Positions 13,266 through 39,896 of a stretch of 39,896 bases of DNA are shown in pieces. The DNA comes from Archangiaceae bacterium (lineage in GTDB: Bacteria > Myxococcota > Myxococcia > Myxococcales > Myxococcaceae). Where the stretch lies: assembly GCA_016879935.1 (NCBI GenBank), contig JAACJQ010000057.1, forward strand, positions 1 to 39,896, written 5' to 3'. Made by a program: the position numbers and the translations under genes. Numbering within the stretch: the stretch's first letter is position 1; every line of letters begins with the position of its first letter. Below the pieces are notes generated by a model, which was given only the letters and a program-made list of their open reading frames with translations, was not told the origin of the DNA and ran no database searches.

Positions 13266-13297
13266 AGGCCGAGAAGCCGCGGCCAGAAGGACACGCG

Positions 13298-14791: not shown

Positions 14792-14804
14792 GCGAGAAGA
14801 CACG

Positions 14805-16205: not shown

Positions 16206-16208
16206 CCC

Positions 16209-17375
16209 ATGCTCTATCTCTTCTACGAGTGGCTCAAAGATGGCGAGGCCGCTCGCTACCTGAACTTCCTGCGGTACCCGACGTTCCGCATCGTCGCGAG
16301 CTTCGGCTCGTCGCTGGTCATCGGCATGATGATCGGCCCGAAGCTGATCGAGCGCCTGCGCATCGCGCAGTACGGCATCTCGAACGTTCGTGAAGACACG
16401 CCCGAGTCGCACCAGAAGAAGAAGGGCACGCCGACGCTCGGTGGCTCGCTCATTCTGCTCGGCATCTTCATCGGCACGCTGCTGTTCGCCGACCTGCGAA
16501 GCCGCGTGGTGCTCGTCGCGTTGCTGATGACCGCGGGCTACGGCTTCACGGGCTTCCTCGACGACTGGCTCAAGCTCTCGAAGAAGAACTCGAAGGGCCT
16601 CGCCGGCCGCTACAAGATCGTGCTGCAGACGGGCTTCTTCCTCGTCAGCGTCTTCGGGCTGCTCATCGACTGGAGCGGCGGCGTTCCGCACCTGCTCATC
16701 GACACGAAGCTCACCGTGCCGTTCATTCCCACGCGCTACGCGAACCCCGATCTCGGCTGGGTCTACGTGTTCTTCGCGTGGATCGTCGTCGTCGGAACGT
16801 CGAACGCGGTGAACATGACCGACGGCCTCGACGGTCTCGCCATCGCGCCCACCATCGTCGCGGCGCTCGTGTTCGCGGTGCTCTGCTACGTCGCAGGCAC
16901 GTCGGTGGAGATCGCCGACTCCGCGATGGTGAACGGCACGAAGCAACTCGTCGGTGTACCCGTCTACCAATACCTCGGCATCGCGAAGGTCGACGGCGGC
17001 GCCGAACTCGCTGTCTTCTGCGCGGCCATCGTCGGCGCGGGCATCAGCTTTCTCTGGTTCAACGCCTACCCGGCGAGCGTGTTCATGGGCGACGTCGGCT
17101 CGCTCGCGCTCGGTGGAGCGCTCGGTACCGTCGCGATGCTCAGCAAGAACGAGCTCGTCAGCGCCATCGTGCACGGCGTGTTCCTCGCCGAGATCCTCTC
17201 GGTGATGATCCAGGTGACCAGCTTCAAGACGACCGGAAAGCGCGTCTTCAAGATGGCTCCGCTGCACCACCACTACGAGAAGAGCGGCATGTCGGAGACG
17301 AAGATCGTCGTCCGCTTCTGGATCATCTCGCTGCTGCTCGGCGGTGTGGCGCTCGCGTCACTGAAACTGAGGTAA
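16209..17375 (+). CDS. mraY: Phospho-MurNAc-pentapeptide translocase MraY
   Basis: MraY transfers phospho-MurNAc-pentapeptide to undecaprenyl phosphate, forming lipid I at the inner membrane. The 388-residue product has the expected ten hydrophobic segments. Its cytoplasmic loops read KKGTPTLGGSLILLG, GFLDDWLKLSKKNSKGLAGR (D118, D119) and NAVNMTDGLDGLAI. NAYPASVFMGDVGSLALGG (D295) and the histidine motif PLHHHYEKSG complete the active site. It starts three bases after the murF stop and ends three bases before murD. Confidence 0.97.
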   Translation: MLYLFYEWLKDGEAARYLNFLRYPTFRIVASFGSSLVIGMMIGPKLIERLRIAQYGISNVREDTPESHQKKKGTPTLGGSLILLGIFIGTLLFADLRSRVVLVALLMTAGYGFTGFLDDWLKLSKKNSKGLAGRYKIVLQTGFFLVSVFGLLIDWSGGVPHLLIDTKLTVPFIPTRYANPDLGWVYVFFAWIVVVGTSNAVNMTDGLDGLAIAPTIVAALVFAVLCYVAGTSVEIADSAMVNGTKQLVGVPVYQYLGIAKVDGGAELAVFCAAIVGAGISFLWFNAYPASVFMGDVGSLALGGALGTVAMLSKNELVSAIVHGVFLAEILSVMIQVTSFKTTGKRVFKMAPLHHHYEKSGMSETKIVVRFWIISLLLGGVALASLKLR

Positions 17376-17378
17376 CCG

Positions 17379-18734
17379 ATGGCGTCGCTCGAGGGAAAAC
17401 ACTTCGTCGTCATCGGCCTCGGCAAGAGCGGCATCGGTGCTGCGTCGCTGCTGCTCAACCGTGGTGCGCGCGTGACGGCGCTCGACGAGAACGAGAAGGC
17501 GACCGCGCCGTTCACGTCCGACCGCTTCACGCTGAAGAAGGGCCCGTTCCCCGCGAAGTTCTGGGAGGGCGCCGAGGCCGTCGTCGTCAGCCCCGGCGTG
17601 CCGCTCTCGAAGCCCGAGCTGGTCGCCGCGAAGCAGGCCGGCGCCGTCGTGTACGGGGAGATCGAGCTCGCGTGGAGGTTCCGCCCTGAAGGTGCGGGCC
17701 CGATGTTCGGCATCACCGGCACGAACGGCAAGAGCACCACCACGGCGCTGCTCGGCGAGCTGATGAAGCGCCACGAGCCGAACACCTTCGTCGGCGGCAA
17801 CCTCGGCACGGCGCTGACCCGCGCCTACGAAGACCCCGCACAGAAGCCGTACGCGATGCACGTCGTCGAGCTCTCGTCGTTTCAGCTCGAGGGCATCATC
17901 GACGCGTCGTTTCAGGGCACGGCGATTCTGAACCTGACGCCCGATCACCTCGATCGGTACGCCTCGCACGACGAGTACGGCCTCGCGAAGGCGCGCATCT
18001 TCTCGACGCAGCCGCCGAAGGGCTTCGCGATCGTGAACGCCGATGACGCGCACGTCGTTCGGCTCGGGCGTGCTGCGAAGGTTCCACTCTACGGCTTCAC
18101 CAGCGACGCCATGCGCACGAACGCTGGCTTCACGGGCGTCGCGGTCGGTGGCGGCTCGAAGTTCATCCTCGCGTTCGGCGACAAGCCGGTTTTCCACGTG
18201 CGCAATCGTTCGCTCCGCGGCAAGCACAACCTCGAGAACGCGATGGCCGCCGCGATGATGGCGCACCTCGCTGGCGTTCCCACCGCCACGATTCAAGAAG
18301 GCCTCGACGCGTTCCCCGGCTTGCTGCACCGCATGGAGTTCGTGCGCGAGCTCGATGGCGTCGAGTGGCTCAACGATTCGAAGGCCACCAACGTCGACTC
18401 CTCGCTCGTCGCGCTCAACGCGTTGCCCGGCCGCATCTGGTTGATCGCCGGCGGCAAGGGCAAGGGCGCGCCGTACACGCCCATGGTCGACGCCGCGAAG
18501 GGCAAGGTGCTCGGCGTGCTGACGATTGGGAAAGACGCTCCGGCAATCGCCGACGCGTTCAAGAACTTCCCCGTGCACGGCTGCGAGACCATCGACGTCG
18601 CGGTGAAGAAGGCACGCGAGCTCGCGAAGTCGGGCGACATCGTTCTGCTCTCACCCGCCTGCGCTTCGTACGACCAGTTCAACCACTTCGAGCACCGCGG
18701 CGACACGTTCAAGTCGCTGGTGAAGGGCCTCTGA
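17379..18734 (+). CDS. murD: UDP-MurNAc-L-Ala-D-Glu ligase MurD
   Basis: MurD adds D-glutamate to UDP-MurNAc-L-alanine. The 451-residue protein starts with a Rossmann-like domain (HFVVIGLGKSGIGAASLLLN), has VVSPGVPLSKPE and the ATP loop FGITGTNGKSTTTALLGEL (Lys118). NLTPDHLDRY and DSKATNVDSSLVAL follow, then GGKGKGAPYTP and the final LLSPACASYDQFNHFEHRGD. These are diagnostic for MurD. The C-terminal SPACASxDxF motif is complete. ATG at 17379 is three bases after mraY; ftsW begins one base after its stop. Confidence 0.97.
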   Translation: MASLEGKHFVVIGLGKSGIGAASLLLNRGARVTALDENEKATAPFTSDRFTLKKGPFPAKFWEGAEAVVVSPGVPLSKPELVAAKQAGAVVYGEIELAWRFRPEGAGPMFGITGTNGKSTTTALLGELMKRHEPNTFVGGNLGTALTRAYEDPAQKPYAMHVVELSSFQLEGIIDASFQGTAILNLTPDHLDRYASHDEYGLAKARIFSTQPPKGFAIVNADDAHVVRLGRAAKVPLYGFTSDAMRTNAGFTGVAVGGGSKFILAFGDKPVFHVRNRSLRGKHNLENAMAAAMMAHLAGVPTATIQEGLDAFPGLLHRMEFVRELDGVEWLNDSKATNVDSSLVALNALPGRIWLIAGGKGKGAPYTPMVDAAKGKVLGVLTIGKDAPAIADAFKNFPVHGCETIDVAVKKARELAKSGDIVLLSPACASYDQFNHFEHRGDTFKSLVKGL

Positions 18735-18735
18735 C

Positions 18736-19917
18736 ATGAACGACTCCCGCAAGGCGACCATCGCGTACGACCCGGTGCTGCTCGCGGCCATCTTCGGCCT
18801 CGTCGGCTTCGGCCTCGTGATGGTCTATTCGTCGAGCGCCATCACCGCGCAGGACAAGCTGGGCGACGGCTTCTTCTTCTTGAAGCGTCAGGCGTTCGCG
18901 GCGGCCATCGGCCTCGTCGCCATGGCCGTGTCGATGAAGCTCGGCTACCGGCGCATGGCCCGCCTGGCGTACCCGCTGCTCGTGGTCGCGGTGATTCTGC
19001 TGATCGCGGTGCTCATTCCCGGCATCGGCACGAAGGTCGGCGGCGCCAAGCGGTGGATTCGTTTTCCCGGTGTGTCGATTCAGCCTGCAGAGATCGCGAA
19101 GGTCGCCTGGGTCATCTACCTCTCGTACTCGCTCGCGAAGAAGCGCGAGAAGGTGCAGCACTTCTCGATCGGCTTCCTCCCGCACCTCGGCATCGCCGGC
19201 TTCCTCGTCATTCTCTGCATGCTCGAGCCCGACTTCGGCAGCTCGGTCGCGCTGTTGTTCCTCATGTTCGTGATGCTGTTCGCCGCGGGCGCGAAGCTGT
19301 CGTGGCTGGTCGGCTCGGTGCTGCTCGCGATTCCGTTCGCGTACACGGCCATCGCCACCAGCGAGTACCGCATGAAGCGCATCACCGCGTTCCTCGACCC
19401 GTGGGCGAACCGCCAGGGCTCGGGCTACCAGGTCGCGGAGTCGCTCATGTCGATCGGCTCCGGCGGCGTGTCGGGCCTTGGCCTCGGCGACGGCCGGCAG
19501 AAGCTGTTCTTCCTGCCCGAGGCGCACACCGACTTCATCTTCGCGATCATCGGTGAAGAGCTCGGCCTGCTCGGCGTCGCGGCGCTCATCTCGCTCTACG
19601 GCCTCGTCATCTGGCGCGGCATTCGCGCTTCGTTGAACGCGACCGAGCCGTTCGGCACGTACCTCGGCCTCGGCATCACCACGCTCATCGGCTTCCAGGC
19701 GGTGGTGAACATGTCGGTGGCCATGGGCCTCGTGCCCACGAAGGGCCTCACGCTGCCGTTCATCTCGTACGGTGGCAGCTCGCTCATCGTGCTCATGGGC
19801 GCGGCGGGGCTGCTGCTGTCGATCAGCGGCGCTGCCGACGGCGGCAAGAACCGCGTGAAGGCCGTGAAGGTCACGAAGGCCGACCTGCCCATGGGCGGAG
19901 CGGAGGCCACTGCGTGA
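18736..19917 (+). CDS. ftsW: Septal peptidoglycan polymerase FtsW
   Basis: FtsW is the SEDS-family glycosyltransferase that polymerises lipid II at the septum together with FtsI. The 393-residue protein is hydrophobic with about ten membrane segments. It has VGFGLVMVYSSSAITAQ near the N-terminus, GAKRWIRFPGVSIQPAEIAK, and MLEPDFGSSVALLFL, which includes the Asp of the proposed catalytic region. The large periplasmic loop GYQVAESLMSIGSGGVSGLG, then LPEAHTDFIFAIIGEELG, and LPFISYGGSSLIVLMGAAG close the set. These place it in the FtsW/RodA family, and the position within the dcw cluster makes it FtsW. It overlaps murG by four bases (GTGA). Confidence 0.95.
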   Translation: MNDSRKATIAYDPVLLAAIFGLVGFGLVMVYSSSAITAQDKLGDGFFFLKRQAFAAAIGLVAMAVSMKLGYRRMARLAYPLLVVAVILLIAVLIPGIGTKVGGAKRWIRFPGVSIQPAEIAKVAWVIYLSYSLAKKREKVQHFSIGFLPHLGIAGFLVILCMLEPDFGSSVALLFLMFVMLFAAGAKLSWLVGSVLLAIPFAYTAIATSEYRMKRITAFLDPWANRQGSGYQVAESLMSIGSGGVSGLGLGDGRQKLFFLPEAHTDFIFAIIGEELGLLGVAALISLYGLVIWRGIRASLNATEPFGTYLGLGITTLIGFQAVVNMSVAMGLVPTKGLTLPFISYGGSSLIVLMGAAGLLLSISGAADGGKNRVKAVKVTKADLPMGGAEATA

Positions 19918-21058
19918 GGGTGTTGATCGCCGGCGGTGGAACGGGCGGGCATCTCTTCCCCGGCATCGCGCTGGCGGAGGAGGTCGTCACCCGTCACCCG
20001 AAGAACGACGTCGTCTTCGTCGGTACGAACCGCGGCCTCGAGGCGCGCGTGGTGCCGCAGAACGGCTTCGTCTTCGAGTCGATCACCTCGCGGGGCCTCA
20101 AAGGCATGGGCGTGCTCAAGCTGCTGCTCGGCCTGCTCACGCTGCCGTGGAGCTTCTTCGAGTCGCTGTCGCTGGTGCGCAAGTACAAGCCAGACATCGT
20201 CATCGGCGTCGGCGGCTACTCGTCGGGCCCGGTCGTCATGGCGGCGTGGCTGCTCGGCGTGCCGACCGCGGTGCAGGAGCAGAACGCGCTGCCCGGCCTC
20301 ACCAACAAGCTGCTCGGCAAGTTCGTGAAGTCGGTGTTCCTGTCGTTCGACGAGACGCAGCGGTTCTTCCCGCAGGGCAAGGCGCACGTGCTCGGCAACC
20401 CGATTCGTCGCTCGCTGCTCGACAACTTCCTCAAGCCCTCCATCGCCCACGAGAAGTTCGCGGTGCTGATCTTCGGCGGCTCGCTCGGCGCGCGTGGGCT
20501 CAATACCCGCGTCGTCGACGCGCTGACCGTGCTCGCCAGCGAGAAGGAGTCGCTGCGCATCGTGCACCAGACCGGCAAGGCCGACCTCGAGACCGTGAAG
20601 CAGGGCTACGAGGGCAAGGGCTTCGACGCCGACGTGCGCGAGTTCATCGACGACATGAGCGCCGCCTACCTCGCGTGCGATCTCGTCGTCTGTCGCGCAG
20701 GCGCCACCACGATCGCCGAGCTGACGACCTGCAAACGCGCCTCGATTCTCGTGCCGTTCCCCTTCGCGACGGACGATCACCAGGCCGTGAACGCCAAGGC
20801 GCTGGTCGACGCGGGCGCGGCGCTGATGTTCCGCGAAGGCGAGCTCACCGGTGAGAAGCTGGGCACGGCGATTCTCGAGCTGAAGGCCGACAAGGCGCGG
20901 CTGCAGAAGATGGAGAAGGCCGCCGGCAACCTCGGTCGCCCGGAAGCTGCGCGGGAGATCGCCGACGTGCTCCAGCAGATGTGCCTCGTGAAGTGGGGCG
21001 CGCTCACCGGCCAGAAACGCGAAGGCGAGCCCATGCGCCCGAAGACGGAGAAGAAGTC

Positions 21059-21062
<4 letters not shown>
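19914..21062 (+). CDS. murG: Lipid II synthase MurG (GlcNAc transferase)
   Basis: MurG adds GlcNAc to lipid I, producing lipid II on the cytoplasmic face of the membrane. The 382-residue protein has the N-terminal [20 protein letters not shown], the [19 protein letters not shown] loop and [16 protein letters not shown]. The UDP-GlcNAc-binding C-terminal half has [26 protein letters not shown] and [16 protein letters not shown]. All MurG signature blocks are present. The last 20 residues are basic and extend past the usual end. The GTG start at 19914 overlaps the ftsW stop, and the stop overlaps the murC ATG. Confidence 0.97.
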
Positions 21063-22470
<1,408 letters not shown>

Positions 22471-22474
<4 letters not shown>

Positions 22475-23406
22475 GCGCCGTGGCCGTCATTCGCCCTTCG
22501 AGCTTCGCGGAGTGGCTCGAGCGCGTCGCTCCCGCCGAGGTGAAGCGGAACGAACCGCTCGCGCCCTGGTGCTCGGTGCGCGCGGGTGGGCCGGCTGACG
22601 TGCTGTTTCGTCCGAAGACGCCTGACTCGCTGGTGACCGCGCTCGCGATGGCGAAGGACTCGGGCACACCGGTCTCGATTCTCGGCCTCGGCGCGAACAC
22701 CCTGGTCGGCGATCTCGGCGTCCGTGGCCTCACGCTCAAGCTCCCGAACTCGACGTTTCAGGAAGAGATCGCCCTCGACCCCGCAGGCGGCACGTTCGTG
22801 TTGAGCGCTGGAGCGTCGATCGCCCGCCTCGTCACGTTGATGAAGCAGCACCAGCTCGTCGGTGCCGAGTTCCTCGCGGGCGTGCCAGGCACCATCGGCG
22901 GAGCGGTGACGATGAACGCCGGCACGAAGAACGGCGAGTGCATGTCGCGCGTCGTCGCCATCGAGGTCGCGACGGCCGATGGCCTCGGGTGGATTCCGCC
23001 GCCCACCTTCCGCTACCGCCACACCGACGTGCCCGCCGGAGCCGTCATCACCCGCGCGAAGTTCCGCCTGCCCACCGGTGACGTCGCCGCCAGCCAGGCC
23101 GCGATGGACGCGGACCTCGGCTATCGCAAGCGCACGCAGCCGCTCTCGCAGCCGAACTTCGGCAGCGTCTTCACCAACCCGCCCGGCCACGCTGCTGGGG
23201 CGCTCATCGAGAAGACCGGCCTCAAGGGCCACACCATCGGCGGCGCGCAGATCTCCACGCTGCACGCGAACTGGATCGTGAACCTCGGCGACGCGAAGGC
23301 CCACGACGTCACCTCGCTCATGGCGCTCGCCCAGACCCGCGTTCGCGAGACGTCCGGCGTCGAGCTCACCCCCGAGGTCAAGCGCATCGGGGAGTTCCTC
23401 CCGTGA
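22471..23406 (+). CDS. murB: UDP-N-acetylenolpyruvoylglucosamine reductase MurB
   Basis: MurB is the FAD- and NADPH-dependent enzyme that makes UDP-MurNAc. The 311-residue product has the FAD-binding blocks [16 protein letters not shown] and [40 protein letters not shown], then [20 protein letters not shown] (with the proton-donor Ser) and the last [17 protein letters not shown] follow. The length and the absence of an extra C-terminal domain fit the shorter type II MurB rather than the E. coli type. The GTG start overlaps murC by four bases; the stop TGA (23404-23406) overlaps the candidate GTG start of ftsQ. Confidence 0.96.
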
Positions 23407-24335
23407 TCGCCCTCGCCATGTGTGACACCCGCTACAGCCACATCGCTGTGGCCAGAAATTTGCGGGGTCGTGAAACCGGCCTGACGATGGCGGCGTCGAT
23501 GTTCCGCTCCCGCCGCAACCGCCGCAAAGTCGATCTCGCCAAGAAGACGAGCGAGCTGAAGGCCTCCGTCAAGCACCACGCTCCGTCGGTGCTCAAGGCG
23601 CTTGGCGCGACGGCGCTCTCGGTCGGCCTCGTGTACGGCGGCTGGAAGGGCTGGGCCTGGGCGAACACGACCGAGTCCTTCGCGATGAAGCAGGTGCAGG
23701 TGCTCGGCAACGCGCGCGTGACCGACGTGCAGGTGACGAAGCTCGGTGGCCTCGTGCTCGGGTCGAACCTGATCGCGATGGATGTCGGCAGCGTCGAGCG
23801 CGCGTTGTCGTCGCACCCCTGGGTGAAGTCGGTCGTCGTTCGCCGCCACCTGCCGGGCACGCTCACCGTTCAGATCACCGAGAACCAGCCAGTCGCGCTG
23901 CTCGCCCTCGACGAGCTCTACCTGGTCGACGGCGACGGAGAACCCTTCAAGCGCGCTCAGGCCGCCGAGGCGATGGACCTGCCGCTGGTGACCGGCATCG
24001 CCCGTGACGCGCTCGTGTCTCGCCGCGACGAGACGCGCCTCGTGATTCGCCGCGCGCTGATCGCCCTCGATGCGTACGGCCGCTCGGCCGTCTCGAAGGG
24101 CCACGCCGTCTCGGAAGTCAACGTGTCGGACTCGGGGCTCACGCTCGTCACCACGAGCGGGCAGGAGATCGTCCTCGGTGAAGCCGACGTCGAGCCTGCC
24201 CTCGAGCGGCTCGCACGCATTCGCAAAGAGCTCTCGGCGCGGCAGCTGACCGCCGAGGTCATTCGTCTCGACAACCGCACCCGCCCCGACTGGGTCGCCG
24301 TGCAGACGTCGAAATCAAAGAGCCGGGCTCCCTGA
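23403..24335 (+). CDS. ftsQ: Cell division protein FtsQ
   Basis: FtsQ is the bitopic POTRA-domain protein that recruits FtsL/FtsB and FtsW/FtsI. From the GTG at 23403 it has 310 residues: a basic cytoplasmic part, a transmembrane segment at about 62-86 and a POTRA domain from Met95 (MKQVQVLGNARVTDVQVTKL) to about 163. A beta domain ending in RPDWVAVQTSKSKSRAP follows. The GTG is supported by GGGGAG at 23390-23395 and by the GTGA overlap with murB. However, residues 8-22 are encoded by a repeated structured element, and ATG 23487 (or 23499) starts directly before the natural-looking basic head (MFRSRRNRRKVDLAKK). If 23487 is right, the gene has an 80-base leader holding the element, and 282 residues. 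The downstream ATG has no clear ribosome site. Identity is sure; the start is not. Confidence 0.88.
   Translation: MIALAMCDTRYSHIAVARNLRGRETGLTMAASMFRSRRNRRKVDLAKKTSELKASVKHHAPSVLKALGATALSVGLVYGGWKGWAWANTTESFAMKQVQVLGNARVTDVQVTKLGGLVLGSNLIAMDVGSVERALSSHPWVKSVVVRRHLPGTLTVQITENQPVALLALDELYLVDGDGEPFKRAQAAEAMDLPLVTGIARDALVSRRDETRLVIRRALIALDAYGRSAVSKGHAVSEVNVSDSGLTLVTTSGQEIVLGEADVEPALERLARIRKELSARQLTAEVIRLDNRTRPDWVAVQTSKSKSRAP
23428..23467 (+). promoter_or_regulatory. Structured repeat element, copy 1 (5' end of ftsQ)
   Basis: A 40-base segment beginning CCCGCTACAGCCAC and ending TTGCGGGG. It matches a second segment at 25651-25684 in both outer blocks. In RNA, CCCGC pairs with GCGGG as an outer stem. 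Inside, GCCACA (23436-23441) pairs with TGTGGC (23446-23451) around the loop TCGC. A purine-rich 3' side (AGAAATTT) is left unpaired. Copy 2 has a different inner stem length but the same outer stem. The same frame also codes RYSHIAVARNLRG within the longer ftsQ reading. RNA element, DNA repeat and short peptide are all possible. Confidence 0.5.
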
Positions 24336-24383
24336 GAGGGGAACTCCGGTTTCGCAGCAAACGGCTCCTCCGAGAGGCGGAGC
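24323..24383 (+). promoter_or_regulatory. Tandem hairpins at the ftsQ-ftsA junction, one with GAGA tetraloop
   Basis: The first hairpin has CCGG (24323-24326) with CCGG (24346-24349), and inside it CCC (24330-24332) with GGG (24338-24340). The loop TGAGA contains the ftsQ stop codon. The second runs from GCTCC (24364-24368) to GGAGC (24379-24383), with CC/GG closing a GAGA loop at 24372-24375 and one T-C mismatch. GAGA is a GNRA-class tetraloop. The ribosome site AGGGAG of ftsA (24384-24389) follows at once, so folding would control its access. Confidence 0.45.
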
Positions 24384-24395
24384 AGGGAGAACACC

Positions 24396-25631
24396 ATGGC
24401 CAAGCAGCGGGGAGGAGAGATCATCGTCGGCCTCGACATCGGCACGACGAAGATCTGCGCCATCGTCGGAGAGCTGACCGACGAGGGCATCGACATCATC
24501 GGCATCGGCACCAACCCCTCGCGCGGTCTGCGGAAGGGCGTCGTCGTCAACATCGAGTCGACCGTGCAGTCGATTCAGCGAGCCATCGACGAAGCCGAAG
24601 CGATGGCCGGCACCGAGATCACCCACGTCTACACGGGTATCGCCGGAGGCCACATCAAGAGCTTCGGCGGCCGTGGCGTCGTCGCGCTCAAGGACCGTGA
24701 GGTTCGTGAGGCCGACATCGCGCGTGTCATCGAGCAGGCGAAGACGGTCAACATCCCCGTCGATCGTGAGGTCATTCACGTGCTGCCGCAGGAGTTCATC
24801 GTCGACGAGCAGAGCGGCATCAAGGAACCGCTCGGCATGACCGGCGCCCGCCTCGAGGCCCGCGTGCACATCGTCACCGGCGCCGTCACCAGCGCGCAGA
24901 ACATCGTGAAGTGCGCGAACCGCGGCGGCCTCAACGTCGCCGACATCGTGCTGCAGCCGCTCGCCTCGAGCGAGGCCGTGCTCACCGATGAAGAGAAGGA
25001 ACTCGGCGTCTGCCTCGTCGACATCGGCGGCGGCACCACCGACATCGCCGTGTTCCAGAACGGCTCCATCGTGCACACCGCCGTCATCGCGCTCGGCGGC
25101 AACAACCTCACCAACGACATCGCCATGGGCCTTCGTACGCCCATGGAGCAGGCCGAGCGCATCAAGCAGAAGCACGGCTGCGCGCTGACCTCGATGGTCG
25201 ACAAGCAGGAGATGATCGAGGTGCCGTCGGTCGGTGGCCGCGAGCCCCGCGTGATGGGCCGGCAGATCCTCTCCGAGATCCTCGAGCCCCGCGTCGAAGA
25301 GATCTTCCAGCTCGTACACCACGAGATCGAGCGCAACGGCTTCTCCGAGCTGCTCGCGTCGGGCGTCGTCATCACCGGCGGCTCCACGCTGCTGCCCGGC
25401 ATGGCCGAGCTCGCGGAAGAGATCATGGGCGTGCCCGTTCGCCGTGGTGTTCCCCGCGGCATCGGCGGCCTCGTCGACGTCGTGAAGAGCCCCGTCTACG
25501 CGACCGGCGTTGGCCTCGTCGTCTACGGCGCCAGGAATCTCGATCGCCGCATGTTCCGCATTCGTGAGAGCGAGAACGTGTTCAAGAAGGTGAAGCGCCG
25601 CATGGGGGAGTGGCTGCAGGAGGTCTTCTGA
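24396..25631 (+). CDS. ftsA: Cell division protein FtsA
   Basis: FtsA is the actin-like protein that anchors FtsZ to the membrane. The 411-residue product has the phosphate-1 motif IIVGLDIGTTKICAIVGEL near the N-terminus, the 1C-domain region EITHVYTGIAGGHIKS, phosphate-2 VCLVDIGGGTTDIAVFQNG and the adenosine motif VVITGGSTLLPGM. The C-terminal end VFKKVKRRMGEWLQEVF is an amphipathic helix that targets the membrane. ATG at 24396 has AGGGAG at 24384-24389, six bases upstream. It is separated from ftsQ by 60 bases holding two hairpins and from ftsZ by 116 bases. Those gaps are much longer than those in the rest of the cluster. Confidence 0.97.
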   Translation: MAKQRGGEIIVGLDIGTTKICAIVGELTDEGIDIIGIGTNPSRGLRKGVVVNIESTVQSIQRAIDEAEAMAGTEITHVYTGIAGGHIKSFGGRGVVALKDREVREADIARVIEQAKTVNIPVDREVIHVLPQEFIVDEQSGIKEPLGMTGARLEARVHIVTGAVTSAQNIVKCANRGGLNVADIVLQPLASSEAVLTDEEKELGVCLVDIGGGTTDIAVFQNGSIVHTAVIALGGNNLTNDIAMGLRTPMEQAERIKQKHGCALTSMVDKQEMIEVPSVGGREPRVMGRQILSEILEPRVEEIFQLVHHEIERNGFSELLASGVVITGGSTLLPGMAELAEEIMGVPVRRGVPRGIGGLVDVVKSPVYATGVGLVVYGARNLDRRMFRIRESENVFKKVKRRMGEWLQEVF

Positions 25632-25650
25632 CCGCTGCAGTTCCCCACAT

Positions 25651-25684
25651 CCCGCTACAGCCACGTGGCTGAAAACTTGCGGGG
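25651..25684 (+). promoter_or_regulatory. Structured repeat element, copy 2 (ftsA-ftsZ gap)
   Basis: A 34-base copy of the element at 23428-23467: the same CCCGCTACAGCCAC block and the same TTGCGGGG end. It lacks six bases in the middle. The centre is a perfect palindrome, CAGCCACGTGGCTG (25658-25671), which as RNA folds as CAGCC/GGCTG around ACGT. The outer stem is CCCGC (25651-25655) with GCGGG (25679-25683). It starts 20 bases after the ftsA stop. In the ftsA frame it codes [11 protein letters not shown], so the peptide is also alike with synonymous differences (AAT/AAC, GGT/GGC). Confidence 0.55.
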
Positions 25685-25690
25685 CTCTTC

Positions 25691-25719
25691 GGCCGGGCAA
25701 AAGTCGCTTCCGCCCGGCC
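25691..25719 (+). promoter_or_regulatory. Perfect 8-bp GC hairpin before ftsZ
   Basis: GGCCGGGC (25691-25698) pairs perfectly with GCCCGGCC (25712-25719) around a 13-base loop (AAAAGTCGCTTCC). It stands seven bases after the repeat element and 29 bases before the ftsZ start. No T-run follows (ATTCCC), so it is not a usual terminator. An attenuator, an RNA processing barrier or a stabiliser of the ftsZ message are likelier. GAGGA at 25737-25741 is the ftsZ ribosome site and stays free. Confidence 0.55.
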
Positions 25720-25747
25720 ATTCCCAACACGATTTCGAGGACCTCTC

Positions 25748-27070
25748 ATGAACGAGTTCGAGCAGAGCAAGCAGGCAGCGAAGATCCGGGTGGTCGGCGT
25801 CGGCGGCGCGGGCAGCAACGCCGTGAACACGATGATTCAGTCAGGCCTCGAGCGGGTCGACTTCATCGCGCTGAACACCGACGTGCAGGCGCTCGCCAAC
25901 AACAAGGCGCCGACGCGGCTGCAGATCGGCAAGGAGCTGACGCGCGGTCTCGGCGCCGGCGCCAACCCCGAGATGGGCCGTCAGGCCGCCACCGAGTCGC
26001 GCGAAGAGATCGCCGCGCTGCTCCAGGGCGCCGACATGGTGTTCGTCACCGCAGGCATGGGCGGCGGCACGGGCACGGGCGCGGCGCCGGTCGTCGCCGA
26101 CATCGCGCGTGAGCTCGGCTGCCTCACCGTCGGTGTCGTCACCAAGCCGTTCCTCTTCGAAGGCAACCGTCGCCGCAAGGCGGCCGAGCAGGGCCTGCAG
26201 GAGCTGAAGGCCGCGGTCGACACGCTCATCACGATTCCGAACCAGCGCCTGCTCACGCTTCAGACCGAGCCGCTGCCGTTGCTCGACTCGTTCCGCACGG
26301 CCGACGAGGTGCTGCTGCACGCCGTGCAGGGCATCTCCGATCTCATTCAGTACCACGGGTACAGCAACGTCGACTTCGCCGACGTGAAGACGATCAGGAG
26401 CGAGCAGGGCCTGGCGCTCATGGGCACCGGCCGCGCGTCGGGTGAGAAGCGGGCGCTGCGCGCGATGGAGCAGGCGATCGCGTCTCCGCTGCTCGAAGAC
26501 GTGACGATCGACGGCGCGCGTGGGCTGCTCATCAACATCACCGCGGGTCGCGACATCACGCTGCAGGAGATCCACGAGGCGATCTCGATCGCGCAGGAGT
26601 CGGCTGACTCCGAGGCGAACATCATCTTCGGCTCGCTCGTGGACGAGAACGTGAAGGACGAGGTGAAGATCACGGTCATCGCGACGGGCTTCGTGGGTCG
26701 CGACGTGAAGGTGAGCTCGCGTGGCTCGGGTGAGTTCCGCCCGGCGACGCAGGGCTCGCTCATTCCCGGCCGCACCACGTCGGTTCCGTCGATGCCCGCC
26801 GTGATGGCGCCCGTCACCGTGACCGCGCAGTCATCGTCGAGCACGATGTCGATGAGCCCGGCGATGTCGCGTCCGCAGGCGCAGGAGCCGGTGGAGCAGG
26901 TCGCGACGCTGGTTCCGAACAAGGTGGGCTCGCGTCAGCTCGGCTCGAACGAGCGCCCGCAGTCGCCGCGCATCGTGACGCGTGACGCGTCGCTGCCGCT
27001 CGACGAAGACCAGTACGACATTCCGACGTTCCTGCGCCGCCAGGGCGGCCACAGCAACGATCCGGCGTAA
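25748..27070 (+). CDS. ftsZ: Cell division GTPase FtsZ
   Basis: FtsZ polymerises into the division ring. The 440-residue protein has [19 protein letters not shown], the tubulin signature [20 protein letters not shown], the T7 loop [10 protein letters not shown] with catalytic Asp residues, and VTVIATGF in the form ITVIATGF near residue 310. After a variable Pro/Ser/Thr-rich linker (residues about 335-420) the C-terminal peptide [10 protein letters not shown], which binds FtsA, is intact. Following the T7 loop this protein reads TIRSEQG where most FtsZs have a Met-rich loop; other parts are ordinary. ATG at 25748 follows a GAGGA ribosome site. It is the last gene of the cluster, ahead of a strong terminator. 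Confidence 0.97.
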
Positions 27071-33851: not shown

Positions 33852-36152
33852 ATGAGCAGCATTCTCGTCATCAACGCGGCCGGCCGCGAGACGCGTGTCG
33901 CGCTGGTCGAAAACGGTGGAATCGCTGAGTTCTATCTCGAGCGAAAGAAGGACAAGGGAATCGTCGGCAATGTCTACAAGGGCCGCGTCACGCGCGTGCT
34001 CCCGGGCATGCAGGCCGCCTTCGTCGACATCGGAGAAGAGAAGGCGGCGTTTCTCTACGTCGGCGACGTGCTCTTCGACCCCGATGTGACGCGTCATCAG
34101 TTCGACCTCACCGAGGGCGAGCACGACGAAGACGTCAACGAGGTGCCGGAAGAGAACGATCACGACGTTCCTCAACCGTCGCCGTCGTCACCGAACCCCG
34201 AAGGCAGCATCGCGGCCGCGCCTCCAAGCGAGACCGTCGCGGCTCCTGAAGGCAGCGCTCCCGTCGAAGCGGCTCCCGTCGCGGGCGCCGAAGTCGTTCA
34301 GGCCGCCGTCGCCGATGCGCAGGCCACGCCCACGGGCGCCGAGGTCGTCGAGGCCGCGAAAGATCTCGCTGCCACGCCGTCGGGCGCCGAGGTCGTTCAA
34401 GCGGCTGTCGCTGATGCGGCTCCGGTCGCCGAGGCTGCTCCCGCCGCTGAGGCCGCTGCTGCCGTCGAAGGCGCACCTGCTCCCGCTGCCGAGGCCGCTC
34501 CCATCGTCGAGGGGACGGTCGAAGTGCCGCGCTCCCAGGCGCCGCGCGATCTGAAGCTCAAGGAACAGAAGCCCCAGCACCAGCACCAGAAGAAGGAGCG
34601 CAAGCCCGAGCACGCCCCCCGCAAGGAGGCGAAGATCGAGAACCTGCTCAAGGTCGGCCAGGAAGTGATGGTGCAGGTCTCGAAGGACCCGATCGGCACC
34701 AAGGGCGCGCGCGTCACCTCGCACATCTCGATTCCCGGCCGTCACCTCGTGTTCATGCCGACCGTCGATCACGTCGGCATCAGCCGCCGCATCGGCAACG
34801 AGAAGGAGCGCCGCCGTCTGCGCGAGATCGTCGATCGCCTGCGCCCGCCCGGAACCGGCTTCATCGTGCGCACCGTCGCCGAGAACGTGCCCAGCGAGAA
34901 GCTCGAGGCCGACATCCGCTTCCTCATCGAGGTGTGGAACGAGACCGTTCGCAAGAGCGAGAAGACGCACCGCGCTGGCCTCGTTCACCCCGACCTCGAC
35001 CTCATTCTCCGCGCGACCCGCGACCTCTTCGCTCAGGACGTCGAGCAGCTCATCATCGACGACCGTGACGAGTACGAGCGCGTGCTCGGCTTCGTGATGG
35101 CGCAGGACCCGGCCCTCAAGGAGCGCGTGAAGCTGCACGAAGGTGAAGAGCCGATCTTCGACGCCTTCGGCATCGAGGAGGAGATCAAGCGCGCCTCGGC
35201 CCGCAAGGTGTGGCTCAAGTCGGGCGGCTACCTGATCATCGATCAGGCTGAAGCGCTCACCGCCATCGACGTGAACTCGGGCCGCTACGTCGGCAAGAAG
35301 AACCTCGAAGACACGATCCTCAAGATCAACACCGAGGCGTCGAAGGAGATCGTCTACCAGCTCCGTCTGCGCAACATCGGCGGCATCATCATCTGCGACT
35401 TCATCGACATGGAGAAGCAGCAGAACCGCGACAAGGTCTTCAAGTCGCTCCAGGAAGCGCTGGGCCGCGACAAGGCGAAGACGAACGTACTGCGCATCAG
35501 CGAGCTCGGCCTCGTCGAGATGACCCGCAAGCGCGTGCGCGAGTCGCTCGGCCGCGTGCTCCACGAAGACTGCGGCTACTGCAACGGCCAGGGCAGCGTG
35601 AAGTCGGCCACCACGGTCGCCTACGAGATCTTCCGCGAGCTGCGCCGCTCGGGCCCTGCGTACAAGGACCCGACCCTCGTCGTGCAGTGCCAGACGGAGG
35701 TCTCGAACGTGCTGCAGGGTGAAGAGCGCGATGAGCTTCGCCACCTGATGGATCGCTACAACAAGACCATTCAGGTGCGCGCCCAGCAGCAGTACCACCG
35801 CGAGCAGTACGACATCTACGCGCGGCCTGTCAGCGGCGTCGAACTCAAGGTCGCGACCAGCGTCGTCGAGTTCGAGGCGAGTGGTGGCCCGGCGCGCAAG
35901 CCCCAGAACCAGGAGTCGAACCGCTTCGAGCAGCGTGGCGGTGGTGGTGGCGGTGGCGGTGGCGAGCGCGGAGGTGGTGGTGGCGGCGGCGGCGGCGGCG
36001 ACCGCGGCAATCGACGCAACCGCAATGGGCGTGGTGGTGGAGGGGGTGGGGGCGGCGGTGGCGGCAACCGCAATCAGAATCAGCCCCGGCCGTCGGCGCC
36101 TCAGCAGGGCGGCGGTGGTGGTCGCGACGACGGCCTCGCTTCAGGAGAGTGA
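33852..36152 (+). CDS. rne: Ribonuclease E/G
   Basis: RNase E/G cuts AU-rich single-stranded RNA in mRNA decay and rRNA processing. The 766-residue protein starts at ATG 33852 (SSILVINAAGRETRVALVEN), with the S1 region NVYKGRVTRVLPGMQAAFVD. The S1 domain is then interrupted at about residues 76-265 by a Glu/Ala/Pro-rich insertion that contains a threefold GAEVV(Q/E)AA motif and a basic KPQHQHQKKERKPEHAPRKE. The catalytic Asp pair is D473 (AIDVNSG) and D516 (ICDFIDM), 43 apart as D303 and D346 in E. coli. The zinc link is C574-G-Y-C577, again at the E. coli spacing. The tail from about 695 is nearly all Gly with Arg/Asn (an RGG-like RNA-binding end). No E. coli-type degradosome scaffold is seen. 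Could also be named rng. Confidence 0.93.
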   Translation: MSSILVINAAGRETRVALVENGGIAEFYLERKKDKGIVGNVYKGRVTRVLPGMQAAFVDIGEEKAAFLYVGDVLFDPDVTRHQFDLTEGEHDEDVNEVPEENDHDVPQPSPSSPNPEGSIAAAPPSETVAAPEGSAPVEAAPVAGAEVVQAAVADAQATPTGAEVVEAAKDLAATPSGAEVVQAAVADAAPVAEAAPAAEAAAAVEGAPAPAAEAAPIVEGTVEVPRSQAPRDLKLKEQKPQHQHQKKERKPEHAPRKEAKIENLLKVGQEVMVQVSKDPIGTKGARVTSHISIPGRHLVFMPTVDHVGISRRIGNEKERRRLREIVDRLRPPGTGFIVRTVAENVPSEKLEADIRFLIEVWNETVRKSEKTHRAGLVHPDLDLILRATRDLFAQDVEQLIIDDRDEYERVLGFVMAQDPALKERVKLHEGEEPIFDAFGIEEEIKRASARKVWLKSGGYLIIDQAEALTAIDVNSGRYVGKKNLEDTILKINTEASKEIVYQLRLRNIGGIIICDFIDMEKQQNRDKVFKSLQEALGRDKAKTNVLRISELGLVEMTRKRVRESLGRVLHEDCGYCNGQGSVKSATTVAYEIFRELRRSGPAYKDPTLVVQCQTEVSNVLQGEERDELRHLMDRYNKTIQVRAQQQYHREQYDIYARPVSGVELKVATSVVEFEASGGPARKPQNQESNRFEQRGGGGGGGGGERGGGGGGGGGGDRGNRRNRNGRGGGGGGGGGGGNRNQNQPRPSAPQQGGGGGRDDGLASGE

Positions 36153-36155
36153 CCG

Positions 36156-36476
36156 ATGGCCAAGACGGTGGAGCGGCGGATCTCGGTTCGCAAGACGATC
36201 AACCACGAGTTCGCCTCGGTCGACGAGTTCATCAACGAATACGTCACCAACATCAGCCGCTCCGGCGTCTTCATTCGCTCCGATGAGCCGTTGCCCATCG
36301 GTACGCGCGTGAACCTTCGCTTCACCGTCATCAACGACGAGCTCGAGACCATCGAAGGGCTCGGCGAAGTCGTGCGCGTCGTCGAGAAGGGGCGTCAGAA
36401 GGGCATGGGCGTGGTGTTCGTCGAGCTCTCGCAGGTCTCGCGGGAGCTGATCGAGCGCATTCTCGTGCGCCGGTGA
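36156..36476 (+). CDS. PilZ-domain protein (c-di-GMP type)
   Basis: A 106-residue single PilZ domain protein. ERRISVRKTINHEF gives the arginine motif at the N-terminus, and VTNISRSGVFIRSDEPLPIG the N-x-S-x-x-G motif, together expected for c-di-GMP binding. It has LNLRF-like (VNLRFTVINDELETIEGLGE) and GMGVVFVELSQVSRELIERI, like the Myxococcus PilZ subtype TIGR02266. Three bases after the RNase E/G stop, seven before the YihY-type gene, so probably co-transcribed with both. A role in linking c-di-GMP to RNA turnover is possible only from position. Confidence 0.85.
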   Translation: MAKTVERRISVRKTINHEFASVDEFINEYVTNISRSGVFIRSDEPLPIGTRVNLRFTVINDELETIEGLGEVVRVVEKGRQKGMGVVFVELSQVSRELIERILVRR

Positions 36477-36482
36477 GTCATC

Positions 36483-37796
36483 GTGGAGACGACGCCCGAC
36501 ACGCCGACGGAGCCAGTCACCACACCGGCCCCCGCCCAGCCGTCGGCTTCGTCGAAGTCGCTCACGGTGAAGGGGTTGTGGCGCCTGCTCGTCGCGGTGG
36601 TCGTCGGCTATCGCGGTGAGAAGCTCGCGCTTCGTGCCGGCAACCTCACCTTCATCACGCTGACGTCGCTGGTGCCGCTCGCGGCCGTCATTCTGGCGCT
36701 GCTCCACGCGTTCGGTTCGACCCAGGTCGAGGCGCTCGTCATCAAGTTCTTCGAAGATCTGCTGAACCCCGGCGGTCGTGCTCAGGCGGAGCGCGCGTTG
36801 CGGGAGTTCAAGGCCGCAGCGAACTCCCCCACCGGCTCAAGCCTCTCGTTCCTCGTGCTGCTCGTGTCGTCGGGCGTGATGCTCAGGCACCTCGACGCCT
36901 CGCTCAACGACGTCTGGGCCGTACGCCGCTCGCGGCCGATTCTGGGAACCCTCGGGCTCTATCTGGGCGTGCTCATCGTCGGCCCCATCGCGATGGCGCT
37001 GTCGTTGCTCGGCAGCGACGGCATGAAGCGCGTGCTGCTGCTCGTGAACTTCCCGCTCTCGGGCGCCGCCTTCACGCTCGGCGCGATCATCTCGGCGATG
37101 ATCGTCTTCACGCTGCTCTACAAGATCGCTCCGCACGCGCACGTGCCGTGGCGGTCGGCGCTCATCGGCGGCGCGACGGCCGGCGTCGCGTGGGAAGTCG
37201 CCCGACACGTCTACGGCACCATCGCGAGCATCTTCTTCTCTGCCAACGCCGTGTACGGCTCGCTCGGCATCGCGCCGCTGTTCCTCACCTGGGTCTACGT
37301 CAGCTGGTACGTCATTCTGAGCGGCGCGCGCCTCGCCTACGCCGTCGAGCACGCCGACTTTCACGACGAGTTCCGCGACATCTCGGCGCACCCGCGCAGT
37401 GACGAGCTCATCGCCACACGCATCGCGCAGCTCGTCGCGCGTGCTCGGGTCGCTCAGGTGCCAGGCCCCGCATCGCTCGGCCTCGCGATTCAGCTGCGGT
37501 TGCCCACGCAGCGCATCGAAGAATCAGTCGACCGACTGCTCAAAGCGGGGCTGGTGAAGCTCGAAGCGGGCGCCCTCATTCCAGCGAAGGACCTGGTCGA
37601 TCTCACCGTCGCCGACATCTCACTTGCGGTCGGCGGAGCCGCACGAACCCTTCATCGCGAGCGCCTCTCCCGCACGGGCCAGTTCGACGCCGCCGCTGCC
37701 CTGTTCGAGGCTGCCGACGAGGTAAGTGTCGAGAAACTCAAGAAAATCACCTGGGCAGACCTCGCGCTGCTGCCAGAGCATGAGCCAAAAGCGTAG
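36483..37796 (+). CDS. YihY/UPF0761-family membrane protein with C-terminal extension
   Basis: A 437-residue protein from GTG 36483. A Pro/Thr-rich head of about 28 residues leads into the YihY (BrkB-like) domain with about six membrane segments. It includes ALRAGNLTFITLTSLVPLAA (the conserved Ala-x-x-Leu-Thr-Phe-type start of the family), MLRHLDASLNDVWAVRRSRP, HVPWRSALIGGATAGVAWEV and ANAVYGSLGIAPLFLTWVYV. The C-terminal 130 residues, from about 305, are soluble and helical (ELIATRIAQLVARARVAQVP, RIEESVDRLLKAGLVKLEAG), resembling a winged-helix arrangement. The family was once called RNase BN in error; its true function is not known. Follows the PilZ gene by six bases. Confidence 0.8.
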   Translation: METTPDTPTEPVTTPAPAQPSASSKSLTVKGLWRLLVAVVVGYRGEKLALRAGNLTFITLTSLVPLAAVILALLHAFGSTQVEALVIKFFEDLLNPGGRAQAERALREFKAAANSPTGSSLSFLVLLVSSGVMLRHLDASLNDVWAVRRSRPILGTLGLYLGVLIVGPIAMALSLLGSDGMKRVLLLVNFPLSGAAFTLGAIISAMIVFTLLYKIAPHAHVPWRSALIGGATAGVAWEVARHVYGTIASIFFSANAVYGSLGIAPLFLTWVYVSWYVILSGARLAYAVEHADFHDEFRDISAHPRSDELIATRIAQLVARARVAQVPGPASLGLAIQLRLPTQRIEESVDRLLKAGLVKLEAGALIPAKDLVDLTVADISLAVGGAARTLHRERLSRTGQFDAAAALFEAADEVSVEKLKKITWADLALLPEHEPKA

Positions 37797-38283: not shown

Positions 38284-39896
38284 TCAGTGCGCGACTGGGG
38301 CGAGCCGGCCGACGGGCCGAACCTGCAGCTCGGGGTCGAGCTCGGCGAACGTGAGCACGGCCACCTCTGGGAAGGCGCCCTCGACGAGCTTCTTGAGCAG
38401 CCGGCGAACGTCGGGCGACGCGAGCAGCACTGCGCGGCCCTGGCGCGCGACCGACTTCATGCCCTCGAGAATCGCGCCGGCTTCGCGGGGATCGATCGCC
38501 TGACCGGCGGTGCGCAGCGTCTCCTCGATGCCGGGATCGACGAGGTACGCAAAGAGCGACCCCGACGGCGCGTACTGGTGCGAGATCTGCCGCGCGAGCG
38601 CCTGACGGCACCGATCGGCCAGCTGCATCGCATCGCCCGCCGTGCTCGGAGACACGAGCGCGTCGAGAATCGCCTTCAGGTTGCGAACGCTCACCTGCTC
38701 GCCGAGCAGCTTCTTCAACACGTCGGTCATCAGCGGCAGCGGCACCTTCACGAGCGCTTCCTTCACGAGCGCGCCGTGCGTGGCTTCGATGGCCGAGAGC
38801 GCTGACTGCACCTCCTGAACGCCGAGGAACTGGTGCGCGCGTTTGCGCAGCTGCAGCACGAGGTGCTCGCAGACGTACTCGCGAGCCGAGAGCAACGGCA
38901 CCTGGCCCGCACGGGCCTTCGCCTCGTCAGCGGCCGGAACCATCGTGAGCGCCCGACCCAGGCCCGATTCGGGCAGCGGCGTGCCCACGATGCCCATGAC
39001 CTGCAGGTCGCCAACCGACATCGGGGTCACGAAGCGCAGCTCGCCGATGCTCCCGCGACCAGCAGGAATCTCGTCGATCGACAGTGCCCAGCTGCTGGAA
39101 GGGAGCGGCGCTCCAGTGCGAACGCGGAAGCCTGGCAGCTTCACACCGAGGTCCTGGTGCACGCGCTCGCGAACGGTGTCGAGGTCGTTCTTCACGAACT
39201 GGCCGTCGAGCTCTTCGACCAGCCACGTGAGATCGGCCGAGAGGTCGAGCGTCAGCGGCGAAACGCCAGGGTTCAGCTCGGGGCCCTTCTTCTCGCCAGC
39301 AGGCCCCGAGGCGTTCGCCGATTTCGTCACGCTGTTCGACGGGGCTTTCGGCTGGTCCTGCACGCGCTTGAGCCCGAAGCCGACCGCGATGAGCGCCGCC
39401 GCGATGAGCACGAACGTGAGGTGGGGCATGCCCGGCATCAGCGCGAGCGCCAGACACAGCCCGGCGACGACGAAGAGCGCCTTCCACTGGCCGAAGAACT
39501 GCGACCCGATGTCACTGCCGAGCGAGGCCTCTTCGGTCTCCGAGGCCACTCGGGTGACGACGAGGCCGGCAGCGACGGCGATGCACAACGACGGGATCTG
39601 CGAGACGAGGCCGTCACCGATGGAGATGAGCGCGTAGGTGCCCGCCGCCTCGGCCGCGGTCATGCCGTTCTGGAGCGTGCCGATGACGATGCCGCCGATG
39701 AGGTTGACCGCGGTGATGACCAGACCGGCGATGACGTCGCCCTTCACGAACTTCATGGCGCCGTCCATCGAGCCGAAGAGCTGCGACTCACGCTCGAGGT
39801 CTCGGCGGCGCGCGCGGGCCTGGTCCTGCGTGATGGCTCCGGCGCGAAGGTCGGCGTCGATCGACATCTGCTTGCCCGGCATCGCGTCGAGCGTGA
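38284..39896 (-). CDS. Type III export gate protein, FlhA/SctV family (cut by right edge)
   Basis: About 537 codons of a minus-strand gene whose start is beyond the window; the ATG at 39882 is internal, as the frame continues (TLDAMPGKQMSIDADLRAGA). That block with RDLERESQLFGSMDGAMKF, VKGDVIAGLVITAVNLIGG, and YALISIGDGLVSQIPSLCIA is the conserved membrane part of FlhA and SctV (LcrD/HrcV/EscV). Two further membrane segments come next, then a cytosolic domain of about 330 residues, including LLSAREYVCEHLVLQLRKRA and QALARQISHQYAPSGSLFAY. It forms the nonameric ring that receives substrates under the export pore. Flagellar or injectisome identity is not decided here because the neighbours are outside the window. 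The terminator at 38232 may be shared. Confidence 0.85.
   Translation of the reverse strand, partial: TLDAMPGKQMSIDADLRAGAITQDQARARRRDLERESQLFGSMDGAMKFVKGDVIAGLVITAVNLIGGIVIGTLQNGMTAAEAAGTYALISIGDGLVSQIPSLCIAVAAGLVVTRVASETEEASLGSDIGSQFFGQWKALFVVAGLCLALALMPGMPHLTFVLIAAALIAVGFGLKRVQDQPKAPSNSVTKSANASGPAGEKKGPELNPGVSPLTLDLSADLTWLVEELDGQFVKNDLDTVRERVHQDLGVKLPGFRVRTGAPLPSSSWALSIDEIPAGRGSIGELRFVTPMSVGDLQVMGIVGTPLPESGLGRALTMVPAADEAKARAGQVPLLSAREYVCEHLVLQLRKRAHQFLGVQEVQSALSAIEATHGALVKEALVKVPLPLMTDVLKKLLGEQVSVRNLKAILDALVSPSTAGDAMQLADRCRQALARQISHQYAPSGSLFAYLVDPGIEETLRTAGQAIDPREAGAILEGMKSVARQGRAVLLASPDVRRLLKKLVEGAFPEVAVLTFAELDPELQVRPVGRLAPVAH

Follow-up and report, generated by a model that had tools for sequence, protein, structure and literature searches.

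Why does an endoribonuclease of the RNase G type carry two long disordered arms, one inside its S1 domain and one behind its core? This question is raised by a gene in a 39,896-nucleotide stretch of DNA from an Archangiaceae bacterium (Myxococcota; assembly GCA_016879935.1, contig JAACJQ010000057.1, positions 1 to 39,896 of the forward strand), hereafter called the window. The open reading frame at positions 33852-36152 of the forward strand encodes a 766-amino-acid Rne/Rng-family protein, hereafter the window enzyme. Comparing it with its relatives across the phylum, we propose that the two arms may be a re-created scaffold and RNA-holding device, a reading to which we assign a probability of roughly 0.58. 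The parts of the protein that define its family and its core are the following.

33852-36152, forward strand: Rne/Rng-family endoribonuclease on the RNase G side of the E/G split, 766 amino acids (translation, PF10150, PF20833, TIGR00757, tree).
33852-34070, forward strand: N-terminal part with the first S1 strands (residues 41-50, 55-61 and 64-69), residues 1-73 (AlphaFold model, alignment with E. coli RNase E).
34626-35816, forward strand: remaining S1 domain, 5′-sensor, DNase I-like catalytic domain, zinc link and small domain, residues 259-655 (profiles, alignment, AlphaFold model).
35268-35270, forward strand: putative catalytic Asp473, E. coli D303 (residue mapping; invariant in 55 sequences).
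35397-35399, forward strand: putative catalytic Asp516, E. coli D346 (residue mapping; invariant in 55 sequences).
35571-35582, forward strand: putative zinc link Cys574-Gly-Tyr-Cys577, E. coli C404 and C407 (residue mapping; both Cys invariant in 55 sequences).

A preliminary description of the sequence had assigned the protein to the RNase E/G family, and both profile scores and conserved residues bear this out. The protein matches PF10150 (Pfam RNase_E_G; 350.6 bits versus a cut-off of 25.5), TIGR00757 (the general Rne/Rng model; 493.2 bits versus a cut-off of 325.95) and PF20833, the RNase E/G thioredoxin-like domain. Its top-scoring NCBIfam model is the RNase G equivalog, yet the score of 531.4 bits falls under the cut-off of 594, and, therefore, we file the protein as a member of the RNase E/G family on the RNase G side and not as RNase G proper. 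Over the core, it is 46% identical to E. coli RNase G versus 35% to RNase E. When residues of E. coli RNase E are mapped onto the window enzyme, D303, D346, C404 and C407 fall on D473, D516, C574 and C577. The shift is exactly 170 in each case, just as the preliminary description had read it from the spacing of the Asp and Cys residues and from the late position of the first Asp (473 against 303). The S1 residues F57, F67 and K112 (here F57, F67 and K284) and the 5′-sensor residues R169 and T170 (here R340 and T341) are also kept. None of these catalytic, zinc-binding, 5′-sensor and S1 residues varies in a 55-sequence alignment that includes the window enzyme; Pro405 in the zinc link of E. coli RNase E is Gly575 here. 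The domain names for residues 259-655 are taken over from E. coli RNase E and PMC4245959. Judged from sequence, the window enzyme looks like an active endoribonuclease of the RNase G side, in which the S1 domain and 5′-sensor would form the RNA-binding face, the two aspartates would form the metal site, and the zinc link should pair the subunits, as in E. coli RNase E.

Two trees of extracted proteins, with 99 and 59 rows, refine the family assignment. In the 59-row tree, the E/G split has full support (100/100), with E. coli RNase E and RNase G on opposite sides. The same split is supported by a Shimodaira-Hasegawa-like approximate likelihood ratio test (SH-aLRT) value of 100 in the 99-row tree, where E. 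coli RNase G sits on a long branch. All Myxococcia on the trees (28 and 21 sequences) fall on the G side in one clade (support of 94 and 99/96). Because both trees put the window enzyme on the G side, we rejected its assignment as an RNase E orthologue.

The copy number of these genes differs between the class Myxococcia and the rest of the phylum. PF10150 is matched in 174 of 193 Myxococcota genomes, 145 of which belong to Myxococcia. Within the class, 132 genomes have a match: 131 have exactly one, and in the remaining genome a full gene is accompanied by a 42-position fragment. The window enzyme is the sole PF10150 match in its own genome (95% complete). Outside the class, 42 genomes have a match; 32 of them carry two or three, some of the extra matches being fragments, and 10 carry one (five G-type; three E-type, in G035, G065 and G087; and two not typed, in G055 and G073).

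With all candidates in the window's genome scored, no RNase Y N-domain was found there, and the genome has two matches to RMMBL, the RNase J domain. The window enzyme is the only candidate of the RNase E/G/Y type found in this genome. Across the 193 genomes, with up to 15 candidates per genome scored, a full RNase Y N-domain was found in one Myxococcia genome (G025). Genomes G028 (34.5 bits, 809-amino-acid frame) and G121 (40.1 bits together with its neighbours, 284-amino-acid frame) exceed the cut-off with partial matches. The remaining hits in the class score below the cut-off, lie mostly in frames of at least 800 amino acids, and were set aside as coiled-coil noise. Because the enzyme is the sole RNase E/G enzyme and the RNase Y N-domain is almost always missing, we infer that enzymes of this type probably start much of the mRNA decay and RNA processing in the class.

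The two arms of the window enzyme comprise the following features.

34071-34625, forward strand: S1-domain insertion, residues 74-258, low-complexity Ala/Pro/Glu, predicted to be mostly disordered (alignment, AlphaFold model, dN/dS).
34077-34124, forward strand: residues 76-91, DPDVTRHQFDLTEGEH, a conserved island in the left end of the insertion (motif counts; model helix at 77-83).
34284-34397, forward strand: three GAEVV repeats, at residues 145, 162 and 178 (sequence, shuffles).
34530-34625, forward strand: basic right end of the insertion, residues 227-258 (sequence, charge of class loops).
35868-36149, forward strand: Gly-rich, RGG-containing tail, predicted to be disordered, residues 673-766 (AlphaFold model, sequence, class tails).

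The first arm consists of 185 residues flanked by residues 73 and 259; the corresponding place in E. coli RNase E holds 14-15. This region between S1 strands 3 and 4 explains the 170-residue shift of the catalytic sites. In an AlphaFold model of the full-length enzyme (alignment of 55 sequences; mean predicted local distance difference test score [pLDDT] of 70.7), the region lies between the S1 strands 64-69 and 271-278. The insertion thus lies within the S1 domain, as the preliminary description had held. In the same model, 140 of residues 83-249 are in segments under pLDDT 50, and a short helix is predicted at residues 77-83. A second model, of the relative L002 with a 50-amino-acid insert, likewise has most of the insert disordered except for a short helix. 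By a charge-hydropathy estimate, the tail and, by a narrow margin, the insert are classed as disordered and the core as ordered.

The insertion is found in relatives across the class Myxococcia. Of the two outcomes that would have refuted the preliminary description, a position outside S1 in the predicted structure and absence from all relatives, neither was observed. Among 79 distinct Myxococcia sequences, the S1 loop spans 52-446 amino acids (median of 240), with at least 100 in 77 of them. The corresponding loop has 10-85 amino acids (median of 39) in 35 other G-type sequences and 8-20 in 32 E-type sequences. For these counts, sequences identical in core and loop were counted once; L112, L114, L116 (the same as L205) and L202 had been dropped as odd or as belonging to other lineages; and nine Myxococcia sequences without a readable N-terminus, L118 of family f10 among them, were excluded. 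The class name Myxococcia is our reading of the named relatives (Myxococcus, Corallococcus, Archangium and Anaeromyxobacter), and named loci were assigned to the class by grouping near relatives. An assembly or frame error was rejected as the source of the insertion, since relatives preserve the reading frame across the insert, with a ratio of nonsynonymous to synonymous substitution rates (dN/dS) below 1, and since the insert is class-wide.

Within the insertion, conservation is uneven. Its left end carries an island of the pattern DP-[DE]-F...[FY][DE][LM]TEGE, whose final part, [FY][DE][LM]TEGE, occurs in 73 of 79 Myxococcia loops and in none of the 35 other G-type loops. Pro77 is present in 79 of 79 Myxococcia loops and Asp76 in 77 of 79. 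The charge layout is kept as well: the first 40 loop residues are net negative in all 79 loops, and the last 45 are net positive in 74. The middle of the insertion differs strongly among genera. Seven pairs from the genus and its vicinity give dN/dS values of 0.21-0.46 for the insert and 0.02-0.19 for the core. The insertion is coding and constrained, but its constraint is relaxed.

Part of that middle is the threefold GAEVV motif to which the preliminary description had drawn attention. The repeat is real and above chance, since 20,000 shuffles of the insert gave at least one GAEVV in 62 cases and two copies in none. It is not class-wide, however, but a repeat of the genus and its near kin: a GAEVV-like motif occurs in 20 of the 79 class loops, the window's included, with zero to three copies per loop and two or three copies in 11 loops. 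We therefore rejected GAEVV as a family hallmark.

The second arm is the C-terminal tail. It contains Gly runs of 9, 10, 11 and 5 residues and three RGG motifs, and its net charge is near zero; G, R or N make up 76% of residues 696-766. The Gly runs with Arg and Asn that had been described for this end are hence present in the sequence, and residues 673-744 and 751-763 fall under pLDDT 50 in the AlphaFold model. With sequences cut by contig ends excluded, post-core tails of Myxococcia have a median of 176 amino acids, at least two RGG motifs in 55 of 79 cases and a Gly run of at least five in 39 of 79. Among these relatives, the number of RGG motifs per tail ranges from none to 17. The tails of 35 other G-type enzymes have a median of 61 amino acids and no RGG, and those of E-type enzymes have a median of 257 amino acids, with at least two RGG motifs in 4 of 31. 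Condensate formation by such an RGG-like tail is possible.

Outside the class, the E-type enzyme is long-tailed and the G-type enzyme is compact; in the class, the E-type was not found and the G-type has both arms. By this comparison, a compact enzyme gained both an S1 loop insertion and an RGG-type tail early in Myxococcia. The insertion is not shown for the very base of the class because L118, the sole sequence of family f10, has no readable N-terminus. On the trees, L124 (G037) is the sister lineage of Myxococcia (support of 93 and 95/85). In its 54-amino-acid loop, an acidic stretch precedes an Arg/Gly-rich one, possibly an early form of the acidic-then-basic insert. Two further sequences stood out. 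The dropped L116/L205 (G040:C107) is a 1395-amino-acid open frame whose RNase E/G core is divergent (36-44% identity, with the PF10150 match split) and is followed by about 460 amino acids, in a Myxococcota genome that also holds a normal G-type gene. L086, in an entry titled Comamonas sp. KCTC 72670, is a myxobacterial-type enzyme (86% core identity, 335-amino-acid insert), and the title or the assembly is probably wrong.

We propose that the arms would act as the C-terminal scaffold of RNase E does. RNA would be bound and kept in place by the tail together with the insert's basic end; docking of partner proteins such as a helicase or an exonuclease near the RNA entrance would fall to the conserved acidic LTEGEH island, perhaps along with short helical repeats; and the arms together may concentrate the machine in foci. 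If so, evolution would have done more than remove or exchange the C-terminal scaffold of an RNA-decay machine: it would have built one anew on the other paralogue and in another position, in a class with complex development.

Several observations weigh against this proposal. The central part of the insert is hypervariable, and drift toward Ala/Pro/Glu is easy in a high-GC genome. The class members L002 and L008 have loops of just 52 and 80 amino acids, and 24 of 79 class tails hold fewer than two RGG motifs. Thirteen of the 145 Myxococcia genomes have no PF10150 match, although 11 of these have a completeness below 90%. The search for RNase Y relied on its N-domain alone, with at most 15 candidates per genome scored in the 193-genome survey. 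Finally, five genomes from outside the class with a G-type enzyme only (G036, G037, G050, G053 and G058) have loops of 10-54 amino acids and no long tail. Two of these genomes have RNase Y and three are without a match, G053 being 59% complete. The compact G-type enzymes of G037, G053 and G058, which lack an RNase Y match, weaken a simple compensation, in which the loss of RNases E and Y led to the arms. The loss of both is thus insufficient to explain them.

The best-surviving alternative is that the insertion is a tolerated, largely neutral expansion of a low-complexity surface loop in a high-GC genome, which has no partner and must only not disturb folding. The wide range of loop lengths and of GAEVV-like copy numbers would be expected of such a loop, as would a dN/dS roughly 2- to 15-fold higher for the insert than for the core across the seven pairs, the GC-rich codons of Ala, Pro and Gly, and the disorder of most of the insert in both models. 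An insert dN/dS that still does not exceed 0.46 argues otherwise, as do the left island, kept in most of the class and absent from other G-type loops, and a charge layout that is preserved at both ends. Moreover, the E-type paralogues in the phylum hold the same loop at 8-20 amino acids. We consider a neutral origin unlikely.

Slightly less probable in our judgment is that the insert works as a built-in inhibitor or gate, whose acidic first 40 residues mimic RNA over the channel of the S1 domain and 5′-sensor until RNA or a partner releases them. The uniformly negative charge of these residues in the class and the short helix at this end in both models fit such a gate. The Caulobacter S1 insert offers a parallel: one of its helices projects into the site where RNA is predicted to bind, and acidic side chains could act as RNA mimics (PMC4245959). 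A gate sits poorly, however, with an insert that lies mostly under pLDDT 50 in the models.

A last alternative involves the next gene. Downstream of the RNase gene, we note the following features.

36143-36148, forward strand: Shine-Dalgarno-like AGGAGA, presumably for the PilZ gene, within the end of the RNase gene (read from sequence).
36156-36476, forward strand: single-domain PilZ protein, 106 amino acids, with RxxxR and NxSxxG (PF07238; neighbour kept in part of the phylum).
36483-37796, forward strand: YihY/BrkB-family membrane protein, the next gene (profiles).

The PilZ gene begins three bases behind the RNase stop codon. When orthologues were defined by at least 92 bits with the window PilZ as the query (the best other PilZ scores 75 bits), 18 of 32 Myxococcota genomes have one. 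Fifteen of these 18 orthologues adjoin the G-type gene, one lies 2.1 kb away and two are located elsewhere. In the 15 adjacent pairs, which span 14 family codes, 0-162 bp separate the end of the RNase frame from the PilZ match. The window's genome has 39 PilZ matches, and we estimate that adjacency would arise by chance in about 1 in 200 genomes, assuming about 8,000 genes. Counted per distinct G-type locus, a PilZ gene is adjacent in 21 of 76 class loci (a further 12 being too short to judge) and in 11 of 35 outside it. No orthologue was found in 14 of the 32 genomes, including G012, G016, G077, G103 and G175, which are from the same family as the window's genome and are 9-13 Mb in size and 98-100% complete. 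The pair of an RNase G-type gene and a PilZ gene is widespread but far from universal. By loose patterns, RxxxR and [DN]xSxxG, which we take to be the motifs of PilZ domains of the cyclic di-GMP (c-di-GMP) type, are present in the window PilZ and in all 32 PilZ proteins next to G-type genes. The motif pair is missing in three PilZ proteins next to E-type genes.

That the insert is the docking site through which this PilZ protein conveys c-di-GMP to the enzyme is very improbable: for all the tight linkage of the two genes and its conservation beside many G-type genes, other classes pair the PilZ gene with insert-less G-type genes, and two of the PilZ-less genomes of the same family keep the insert (264 amino acids in L014 from G012 and 238 in L016 from G016). 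If the PilZ protein does bind, the enzyme core is a likelier site than the insert. Under our proposal of a re-created scaffold, the PilZ protein would serve as an auxiliary regulator wherever a lineage has retained its gene. A more far-reaching possibility, which we put forward only tentatively and regard as doubtful, is that the G-side RNase of Myxococcota is under direct c-di-GMP control via PilZ, which would sense the messenger and either switch the RNase or determine its location, and has, in Myxococcia, been rebuilt as an RNA-decay hub with two arms. This would tie RNA decay to a signal that governs motility and developmental decisions in many bacteria, and the RNase G-type gene and its PilZ neighbour make a concrete, testable pair that may link c-di-GMP to RNA turnover.

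Other observations concern the PilZ proteins and the surroundings of the gene. In family f13 (L168, L170, L175 and L178), the E-type RNase gene is followed after 145-259 bp by a PilZ-like gene of another and weaker kind. The encoded proteins are 31-39% identical to the window PilZ, and the three examined are without [DN]xSxxG; the f13 genomes G033 and G049 have an orthologue of the window PilZ on another contig. A YihY/BrkB relative lies downstream in many class loci. The window also encodes a second PilZ-domain protein (8107-8820, reverse strand) and, near its end, an FHIPEP protein of the FlhA/type III export gate family (38284-39882, reverse strand). Positions 11241-27070 hold an ordinary division and cell wall cluster, with a PBP transpeptidase with PASTA domains, several Mur ligases, an MraY-type transferase, a member of the FtsW/RodA family, a MurG-type transferase, MurB, FtsQ, FtsA and FtsZ. 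A scan of the window against Rfam gave no match.

S1 insertions as such are already known from other groups. The placement on the G side, the single-copy state and the PilZ neighbour were not met in the literature, as judged by titles and abstract openings and by the available parts of PMC4245959, PMC4435900, PMC10412687, PMC5635695 and PMC11964227. Literature on Myxococcus RNase E, the degradosome and condensates included, by title, no paper on this enzyme. Among the matches listed for PilZ, RNase E and c-di-GMP, no title or abstract opening names an RNase-PilZ gene pair, and, among those listed for RNase E or RNase G of Myxococcota, none names "Myxococcota." Judging by title and abstract opening, none of the papers listed treats the RNA-decay enzymes of Myxococcia, which does not prove that no such work exists.

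Among known systems, the closest likeness is to RNase E of Caulobacter crescentus (PDB 4OXP), which also has a charged, mostly disordered S1 insertion (PMC4245959). Behind the insert, the alignment resumes with window residue 254 at residue 160 of the 4OXP chain and window residue 260 at E. coli residue 88, which fits an insertion in the same loop of both enzymes, as judged by the right edge only. Foldseek matches of the model include RNase E (4OXP among them) and, distantly, FAU-1/RNase W. Their root-mean-square deviations are high because the disordered arms were included, and they add nothing on the insert. Alphaproteobacterial and plant RNase E proteins carry S1 insertions of about 50-150 amino acids, compared with 185 in the window enzyme and 52-446 in its class, and Caulobacter RhlB binds a catalytic-domain fragment that contains the S1 insert (PMC4245959). 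The S1 insertion of plant chloroplast RNase E, as in Arabidopsis, is reported to be needed for full activity (PMC4245959). The Caulobacter protein is called an RNase E, whereas the window enzyme falls on the RNase G side of a tree built without alphaproteobacterial or plant proteins.

E. coli RNase G (L208, b3247) is on the same side of the E/G split as the window enzyme, but it has an 18-amino-acid loop and ends soon after the core (501-amino-acid open frame), in contrast to the 185-residue insert and long tail here. In gammaproteobacteria, RNases E and G form orthologous groups, and E. coli RNase E is set apart by its C-terminal extension (PMC4435900). The RNase E proteins that serve as scaffolds in E. 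coli, Pseudomonas and Caulobacter BR-bodies likewise have a disordered tail on a conserved core, with repeats in variable number (PMC4435900, PMC11964227, PMC10412687), and, in Pseudomonas, disordered regions with repeats bind RNA and form foci (PMC11964227). Unlike these, the window enzyme has a near-neutral, Gly-rich tail on a G-side core and a second arm inside the S1 domain; its three RGG motifs among Gly runs appear to differ from the arginine-rich charge blocks of Caulobacter RNase E (PMC10412687). A link between c-di-GMP and the RNA-decay machine is also present in the E. coli complex of DgcO/PdeO, RNase E and PNPase (PMC5635695). There, PNPase binds c-di-GMP, whereas in the window the candidate receptor is a PilZ protein encoded in tandem with an RNase G-type gene.

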